Assembly (NCBI GenBank): GCA_025656675.1
Contig: JAHXHN010000008.1
Span: forward strand, 62,001 to 126,000
Length of the DNA: 64,000 bases
Source of the DNA: Candidatus Thiodiazotropha sp. (ex Codakia rugifera)
Lineage (GTDB): Bacteria > Pseudomonadota > Gammaproteobacteria > Chromatiales > Chromatiaceae
Reading direction: 5' to 3'
Position numbers and translations under genes: made by a program. The first letter of the stretch is position 1. Each line of letters opens with the position of its first letter. Positions 60,419 to 61,117 of the stretch are shown piece by piece. The notes beneath the pieces were generated by a model. That model saw only the letters and a program-made list of their open reading frames with translations. It was not told the DNA's origin and did no database searches.

Positions 60419-60495
60419 CGGGGTATAGCGCAGTCTGGTAGCGCGCCTGCTTTGGGAGCAGGATGTCGGGAGTTCGAATCTCTCTACCCCGACCA
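60419..60495 (+). tRNA. tRNA-Pro (anticodon TGG)
   Basis: 77 nt. Acceptor CGGGGTA pairs with TACCCCG, anticodon stem CCTGC/GCAGG with loop TTTGGGA, T arm GGGAG-TTCGAAT-CTCTC, CCA encoded. Confidence 0.95.
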
Positions 60496-60505
60496 ATTTT
60501 TTACT

Positions 60506-60878
60506 GCGCCCGTAGCTCATTTGGATAGAGCATCGGCCTTTAGGCGCACATTGAGATGTATGTGCAACCAGGAGCCTTTATGAGGAATACAACTCATAAA
60601 GTGGATCGCACTGTATCGGGGAAACCTTAACAGGTCATGCTGATGGCAATCCCGAGGAAACCTTTGGTTGATCCATCCAGCGGTGAACGGATAGCATGCT
60701 TTGCATCAGTTACAGCAAGCGGTGATCTGATTTCCGAGGGGATCCGTAGAGACTATACGTGCGACACCTGAGATGGTGAAGAGATAGTCCAGACCACAAA
60801 CCCCTGATGGGGGCGTCGAAAGGCGTAGTTGGTAAGCTAAGCCGAGGGTAGCAGGTTCGAGTCCTGCCGGGCGTGCCA
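60506..60878 (+). tRNA. tRNA-Arg (anticodon TCT), split by a group I intron
   Basis: 5' exon 60506-60540 ends ...TCGGC-CTT. 3' exon 60837-60878 begins CTAA-GCCGA and ends with encoded CCA. Joined, they give a 77-nt tRNA whose 7-base anticodon loop reads CTTCTAA (anticodon TCT). Acceptor GCGCCCG pairs with CGGGCGT (one G-T), T arm GCAGG/CCTGC. The exons resemble E. coli tRNA-Arg(UCU). The break lies between anticodon bases 34 and 35. Confidence 0.88.
60541..60836 (+). ncRNA. Group I self-splicing intron inside tRNA-Arg
   Basis: 296 nt with conserved core parts. P7 forms GACTA (60751-60755) with TAGTC (60785-60789) in the classic GAGATAGTCC element. P8 is CACC/GGTG (60765-60768 with 60775-60778), and a P9-like CCCC/GGGG hairpin begins at 60801. 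The preceding exon ends in U and the intron ends in G, as group I introns require. No homing endonuclease ORF is inside. The P1 helix is not settled by eye. Confidence 0.8.
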
Positions 60879-60925: not shown

Positions 60926-61002
60926 GGTGGACGTAGCTCAGTTGGTAGAGCTCCGGATTGTGATTCCGGTGGTCGTGGGTTCGAGACCCATCGTCCACCC
61001 CA
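60926..61002 (+). tRNA. tRNA-His (anticodon GTG)
   Basis: Mature body 60927-61002 plus the G-1 base encoded at 60926. Acceptor GTGGACG/CGTCCAC, anticodon stem CCGGA/TCCGG with loop TTGTGAT, T arm TGGG-TTCGAGA-CCCA, CCA encoded. Confidence 0.94.
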
Positions 61003-61041: not shown

Positions 61042-61117
61042 GGGCCATTAGCTCAGCTGGTAGAGCAGTGGACTCTTAATCCATTGGTCGAAGGTTCGAA
61101 TCCTTCATGGCCCACCA
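61042..61117 (+). tRNA. tRNA-Lys (anticodon CTT)
   Basis: 76 nt. Acceptor GGGCCAT/ATGGCCC, anticodon stem GTGGA/TCCAT with loop CTCTTAA, T arm GAAGG-TTCGAAT-CCTTC, CCA encoded. It is the last tRNA before the accessory region and a candidate integration site. Confidence 0.94.

Follow-up and report, generated by a model that had tools for sequence, protein, structure and literature searches.

A split tRNA-Arg(UCU) gene in a tRNA cluster

The window, the whole 64,000-nucleotide stretch analyzed here, contains a tRNA cluster in the order Pro(UGG), Arg(UCU), His(GUG), Lys(CUU), in which the arginine gene (60506-60878, forward strand) is split between anticodon positions 34 and 35 (Table 1). ARAGORN in default mode calls the Pro, His, and Lys tRNAs only, leaving the split Arg gene uncalled, and finds no tRNA when given the unspliced gene. 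When introns are allowed, it reports tRNA-Arg(tct) interrupted at gene position 36 by an intron of 296 nt. A preliminary description of this DNA had proposed scoring the joined exons as a tRNA, and these do form a 77-nt cloverleaf that ARAGORN types as tRNA-Arg(tct), with anticodon TCT. The borders of the intron are fixed by natural empty sites, in which the exons lie side by side (L029, L030, and L031); both exons of the uninterrupted L030 gene, including the 35-nt 5′ exon, are identical to those of the window. ARAGORN and the empty sites together uphold the earlier assignment of the host as tRNA-Arg(UCU) interrupted between bases 34 and 35. The same description had reported two tRNA halves around a 296-nt insert with the P7 element GAGATAGTCC, a U before the 5′ splice site, a final G, and a joined anticodon loop CTTCTAA, all of which are located where it had placed them. 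In one Thiodiazotropha genome, the Rfam RtT RNA model matches a stretch downstream of the cluster (positions 2097-2240 of locus L017) with 48.7 bits against a cut-off of 45.

Table 1. Window positions of the split tRNA-Arg(UCU) gene, its neighbors, and the modeled intron elements; cells paired and two-sided changes are counted over 39 aligned introns.
Feature	Position	Strand	Remarks
tRNA-Pro(UGG)	60419-60495	+	Intact neighbor, cluster member; ARAGORN
5′ exon, tRNA-Arg(UCU)	60506-60540	+	35 nt, CTT end; last T is U34, the first anticodon base
Group I intron	60541-60836	+	296 nt, from TAGG start to GGTAAG end; empty sites L029-L031
Guide GGAGCC	60571-60576	+	GAG pairs with exon CUU (P1, U.G at splice site); AG before GAG can pair 3′ exon CU (P10)
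P2 hairpin	60576-60601 (60576-60584 with 60593-60601)	+	Two-sided changes at 8/9 pairs; 92.3% of cells paired
P3 5′ strand	60606-60611 (partner 60759-60764)	+	Two-sided changes at 5/6 pairs; 100% of cells paired
P4 and P5	60616-60655 (P4 60616-60620 with 60651-60655; P5 between 60625 and 60646)	+	99.0-100% of cells paired (P4 99.5%)
P6	60656-60745 (60656-60664 with 60737-60745)	+	92.3% of cells paired; two-sided changes at 3/7 pairs
L6 region	60663-60741	+	79 nt; likely endonuclease scar, z up to 8.4 over shuffles
P7	60751-60789 (60751-60756 with 60784-60789)	+	98.7% of cells paired
P8 hairpin	60765-60778	+	100% of cells paired; two-sided changes at 3/4 pairs
P9 and P9b (GAAA loop)	60802-60825 (P9 60802-60804 with 60809-60811; P9b 60814-60817 with 60822-60825)	+	Two-sided changes at 7/7 pairs
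3′ exon, tRNA-Arg(UCU)	60837-60878	+	42 nt, CTAA start; C is C35
tRNA-His(GUG)	60927-61002	+	Intact neighbor; ARAGORN
tRNA-Lys(CUU)	61042-61117	+	Intact neighbor; ARAGORN

Model scores and covariation of the intron

The generic Rfam model Intron_gpI, which the preliminary description had suggested as a check, matches positions 60548-60811 with a score of 25.0 bits (E 2e-4 when 401 bases are searched). This match is weakly positive, and in a genome-wide search the window intron is the sole match in the genome (E 5.5e-4); the score nevertheless lies below the RF00028 gathering cut-off of 50, which is a detection threshold rather than a biological definition. When 20 loci totaling 59 kb were searched with the same model, the window copy fell short of E 0.01. 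Split tRNA-Arg(UCU) genes are present in 18 of these loci, none of which reaches the gathering cut-off, and among the 18 an E of 0.01 is reached by L010, L205, and L027 alone (36.7, 35.9, and 29.7 bits). By comparison, an intron in another host tRNA, the tRNA-Leu(UAA) of a different Thiodiazotropha genome (L246), scores 72.3 bits against 25 for the window intron. The generic model is weak on the tRNA-Arg(UCU) intron lineage, and the structure was therefore written by hand and counted on 39 introns.

These introns derive from 97 typed genes, 66 of which have introns no longer than 335 nt; 42 of the 66 are non-redundant, and the alignment leaves out L033 and L037, which carry large insertions, and L087, which has a diverged core. 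Standard pairs occupy 96.5% of 2047 cells (39 introns, 53 pairs), a percentage favored by the structure having been drawn on one of the 39 sequences, as against 36.0-42.0% when partners are slid by one to three columns. Two-sided changes occur at 31 of the 53 pairs. The covariation value of 0.451 compares with 0.160 in shuffled alignments and is matched by none of 500 shuffles, a comparison in which related sequences can also beat shuffles through kinship.

The core helices P3 to P8 that mark a group I intron, including the P3/P7 pseudoknot, are present across the 39 introns, and P7 is the guanosine-binding helix of such introns. A P1 U.G pair occurs in all 39 rows and lies at the splice site itself in the 34 rows with the intron at 34/35, and a final G ends each of the 110 distinct introns as parsed. 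The P8 and P9-like hairpins of the earlier account are both recovered by covariation (Table 1), and its central claim of a group I intron gains strong comparative evidence from the 39-intron alignment and from presence throughout the genus. Hallmarks of subgroup IC3, the bacterial tRNA introns, are a host tRNA interrupted in the anticodon loop, small size, and a GAAA-capped P9 element. The window intron has all three features and by resemblance belongs to this subgroup.

The short P7 motif GAAGAGATAGTCC was rejected as evidence on its own, its two window matches (at most two mismatches) being at chance level against 1.25 expected. A minimum-energy fold of the whole gene (z -2.2), made with a tool that does not model pseudoknots, did not recover the group I fold. 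In two loci from uncultured Ectothiorhodospiraceae (L059 from 2426 and L065 from 3052), the normal 3′ splice junction is missing after P9b, through either a deletion or an assembly fault.

Guide sequence and insertion site

The 97 typed genes, some of which are the same gene twice, comprise 92 with the intron at site 34/35 and five with the intron at 36/37, two bases further downstream than in the window. The guide reads GGAGCC in 92/92 introns at 34/35 and TTGGACCC in 5/5 at 36/37. GAG pairs with exon CUU in the first type and GGA with exon UCU in the second, each with a U.G pair at the splice site, and the two preceding guide bases are complementary to 3′-exon bases (AG to CU at 34/35, UU to AA at 36/37). 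Of the 92 introns at 34/35, 82 have this preceding AG. The five introns at 36/37 (L028, L042, L097, L121, and L137) form one starred branch of a shallow tree; L028 comes from genome G147 and the other four from Thiotrichales or Thiotrichaceae records. In these genes, guide and insertion site change together.

Distribution in the genus, the class, and beyond

We searched 22 Candidatus Thiodiazotropha genomes with a covariance model built on the intron's 3′ half, and the insertion, which the preliminary description had proposed seeking in relatives, is present in 20 of them. In the other two (G008 and G012, with 530 and 290 contigs), no tRNA-Arg(UCU) gene was found, whether split or intact, so the intron occurs in 20/20 genomes of the genus in which the gene is seen. 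In a class-wide search of 369 genomes, the 3′-half model finds matches at E 0.001 in 52, and stricter filters there lose weak matches. Scores above 100 bits occur in 19 genomes, 18 of which carry a split tRNA-Arg(UCU) (G472 was left untyped), and two of these 18 belong to Thiodiazotropha. The weaker matches are mostly labeled tRNA-Leu(UAA), many of them as tRNA-Leu(taa) interrupted at ARAGORN position 36, along with some tRNA-Arg(CCU) and others, all labels being as given by the program. The suggestion that an intron at this site is unusual does not hold, given its frequency in the genus, the 18 of 369 sampled class genomes with split tRNA-Arg(UCU), and an earlier record in PMC4853749.

A motif scan of named genomes returned at least 117 stretches, with 70 typed directly as Arg(TCT) among the 117 listed; because the scan was seeded with a motif of the same family and many records are metagenome bins, these counts are not a measure of prevalence. 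Where ARAGORN labeled a split gene Ser(gct), its exons CTT and CTAA were used to retype it as Arg(UCU); split genes labeled SeC, Pro, or similar were kept out of the counts, even if they had a CTAA 3′ exon. The tRNA-Arg(UCU) introns listed in the tree come from Pseudomonadota, Bacillota, Bacteroidota, and Chloroflexota.

The same motif appears in several other settings. In L131, it lies possibly within a split tRNA-Asp(GUC), with 3′ exon CACG, and in L047, L100, and L112 (Chloroflexi, Acidobacteria, and another record), it precedes CATAA 3′ exons, perhaps of initiator or other CAU tRNAs. In L035, from a Lachnospiraceae genome, and in the viral contigs L315 and L335, it is followed by an apparent protein-coding exon. 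Carriage of the tRNA cluster on plasmids was considered and rejected, since at most 19% of the query was covered and the matches resemble other tRNA genes. Searches with the intron alone gave partial matches to Bradyrhizobium and Tritonibacter plasmids (21% of the intron) and to phage records (at most 42% of the intron).

An endonuclease gene in related introns and its probable loss

Some relatives carry longer introns, of 621-663 nt in L022-L024 (658 in L022 and 663 in L023) and 386 nt in L025. Loop L6 of both L022 and L023 encodes a 136-amino-acid protein matching the Pfam family PF11645 PDDEXK_5 (E 2e-38 and 3.7e-39), and the stop codon of each gene lies inside the conserved core CCGTAG. 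The family assignment rests on Pfam because a phmmer search against solved structures was not significant (E 0.12 to 2ost, the structure of I-Ssp6803I). With NCBIfam, the sole match was a weak one to HNH (E 0.064 and 0.013). Among 107 distinct tRNA-Arg(UCU) introns, the endonuclease match is unbroken over 115 amino acids or more in 19, partial or broken in 18, and absent from 70; three of the 110 (L068, L087, and L210) were dropped from the tree with their core pattern unmatched.

An endonuclease gene inside the intron, the mark of a mobile intron, is found in L022, L023, and others and is lacking in the window copy. The longest stop-free stretch in the three forward frames of the window intron is 46 codons, in agreement with the earlier statement that it has no endonuclease gene, and tblastn with the endonuclease finds no match in this intron or in any copy from the genus. 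The window L6 nevertheless resembles the joined ends of gene-bearing loops. Compared with both L6 ends, it gives z 8.3 for L022 and 6.9 for L023 over single-base shuffles. Against all 27 long L6 loops (at least 150 nt, one of them, L081, without an endonuclease match), z ranges from 8.4 to -0.4, with the best ten at 5.0-8.4 and 14 of the 27 under 3.2. On these 79 nt and single-base shuffles, the window L6 is likely the scar of a lost PD-(D/E)XK homing-endonuclease gene, and the absence of the endonuclease looks derived.

The alternative that survives best is that the window intron never had an endonuclease and that the gene entered other branches later. This reading, which we consider improbable, would fit the 70 of 107 scored introns without a detectable endonuclease, and it draws on the shallowness of the tree, where 47 of 102 inner branches are drawn open for low support. 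It sits poorly with the likeness of the window L6 to both ends of the gene-bearing L6 in near relatives and with proteins matched at one end only (L025, L075, and L122). Intact, remnant, and empty forms are moreover interleaved on the tree, requiring 26 changes. Loss of the endonuclease is the preferred reading.

Decoding of AGA codons

A tRNA survey of the source genome gave 47 matches, with 150 of 194 candidates scored, and 46 loci were typed with ARAGORN. The intact tRNA-Arg types among these 46 loci are ACG, CCG, and CCT. An intact tRNA-Arg(UCU) elsewhere, which the preliminary description had listed among the points to check, was not found among them, and a search of the genome with the natural uninterrupted gene returned the split copy and relatives at 75-81%. 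By standard decoding, the CCU tRNA reads AGG. The split copy is the sole TCT gene found, and so, from the survey and standard decoding, AGA decoding probably depends on splicing. The genome is in 19 contigs, and the Ile-GAU and Ala-UGC tRNAs, which are often rRNA-linked, were not seen in the survey, indicating that the assembly is imperfect. With the 44 candidates beyond the 150 scored also in mind, a further tRNA-Arg(UCU) may lie in an assembly gap.

The intron could instead be degenerate, leaving a dying tRNA pseudogene with AGA read by other means. The Rfam score under the gathering cut-off might be taken this way, and the abnormal 3′ junctions of L059 and L065 indicate that breakage may occur in the intron family. 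We judge this very unlikely, however, because the window exons match the uninterrupted L030 gene exactly, helices P3, P4, P5, P7, and P8 keep 98.7-100% of modeled cells paired across the 39 introns including that of the window, the intron is kept in nearly all genomes of the genus (20/22), and the genome searches yielded no intact TCT gene that could substitute.

Copies on viral contigs

The motif also occurs in 54 stretches from IMG/VR, the viral label being that of IMG/VR. Ten with a CTAA 3′ exon were picked by reading and examined, and nine of them have a matching 5′ exon ending in CTT, with introns of 229-726 nt; in L324, a 5′ exon was looked for and not found. The guide begins GGAG in all nine, continuing as GGAGCC in four, GGAGCT in four, and GGAGCA in L329. 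Named carriers are L292, L295, L297, L308, L310/L336, L318, L329, and L334. L310, on the same contig as L336, encodes a PD-(D/E)XK relative with 55% identity. L314, which has an encoded CCA end, may represent the host flank of a prophage. Phage genes lend modest support to the viral origin of these contigs: 6 of 10 proteins from L318, L334, and L336 match PHROGs, including a RusA-like resolvase, a DNA methyltransferase, and an exonuclease, and for L336 the match is to an unknown family only. Other viral contigs hold introns of the same type, apparently in tRNA-Leu and other tRNAs.

Relation to known introns

Group I introns in tRNA-Leu(UAA) occur in cyanobacteria, plastids, and Proteobacteria, at site 34/35. 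They share this site with the window intron and differ from it in host tRNA. Among the closest precedents is the interrupted tRNA-Arg-TCT, with a putative group I intron, of Ca. Maribeggiatoa (BOGUAY) and Ca. Thiomargarita nelsonii (MacGregor 2013a, as cited in PMC4853749), where the host tRNA and the class, Gammaproteobacteria, are those of the window intron. The citing paper relates that tRNA-Arg-TCT seemed absent from two genomes owing to its interruption. The Thiomargarita, Thioploca, and Parabeggiatoa copies analyzed here (L137, L121, and L042) are inserted at 36/37, unlike the window intron. Group I introns are also described from the tRNA-Arg(CCU) of Agrobacterium and Bartonella bacilliformis (PMC7717549); the host is again an arginine tRNA, but the isoacceptor is CCU and the bacteria are Alphaproteobacteria. 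The tRNA-fMet intron of Synechocystis PCC 6803 is 655 nt long and carries I-Ssp6803I, a PD-(D/E)XK endonuclease of 150 amino acids (PMC1995217). It resembles the introns of L022 and L023 in size and endonuclease type. It differs in tRNA and phylum and in having an endonuclease, which is absent from the window copy, and the match of the L022/L023 type to 2ost is weak (E 0.12).

A review states that the phage introns known by 2014 were all in protein-coding genes (PMC3984707). A 2025 intron database started from Rfam matches and took boundaries from GenBank annotations (PMC11835236), so unannotated, weak-scoring introns would tend to be absent from it. Searches of the open-licence literature found no report of a tRNA-Arg(UCU)-intron endonuclease, a site shift, or phage copies. 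The kind of intron and its host tRNA are thus already on record, and what is added here is the genus-wide presence, the likely loss of the endonuclease, the site shift, and the viral copies.

Proposed origin and significance

We hold with high confidence that the insert is a group I intron in the apparently sole tRNA-Arg(UCU) gene of this genome, that decoding would depend on its splicing, and that it was probably once mobile and has lost its endonuclease. The borders, the host tRNA, the covarying helices, the presence across the genus, the endonuclease of relatives, and the scar-like L6 can be read directly in the sequences; from them we infer splicing, the reliance of AGA decoding on it, past homing, and the time at which the endonuclease was lost. 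Another kind of insertion, removed for instance by proteins or at the DNA level, would find its only encouragement in the weak generic Rfam score and is exceedingly improbable in view of the covarying group I helices with their P3/P7 pseudoknot, the guide pairing that tracks the insertion site, the final G of 110/110 distinct introns, and the homing endonuclease in L6 of relatives.

Following group I biology, the guide GAG of the precursor would pair with exon CUU, and a guanosine bound in P7 would attack after U34. The freed 5′ exon would then attack at the junction following the intron's final G, and the exons so joined would present the anticodon UCU, which would read AGA. The ancestral intron would have been mobile, its loop L6 carrying the gene for a PD-(D/E)XK homing endonuclease. 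This gene was probably lost before the sampled Thiodiazotropha species diverged, and the intron would now be inherited together with its host tRNA gene.

A wider reading, on which our confidence is evenly divided, is that the anticodon arm of tRNA-Arg(UCU) has long served as a homing site for one PD-(D/E)XK intron lineage in Gammaproteobacteria, Bacillota, Bacteroidota, and Chloroflexota, present also in phage-borne genes that could move it from host to host. The endonuclease would have been lost repeatedly and the intron then fixed, as in Thiodiazotropha, and in one branch changes to both guide halves would have displaced the target by two bases.

Since default ARAGORN misses the split gene and Rfam scores it below the cut-off, genomes can seem to lack a tRNA that reads AGA. 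The unbroken, decaying, and lost endonuclease genes at one site make the cycle of gain, decay, and loss of homing genes countable, and the shifted 36/37 site offers a natural test of target change by a ribozyme. The phage-borne copies, if confirmed, would provide a vehicle for tRNA introns.
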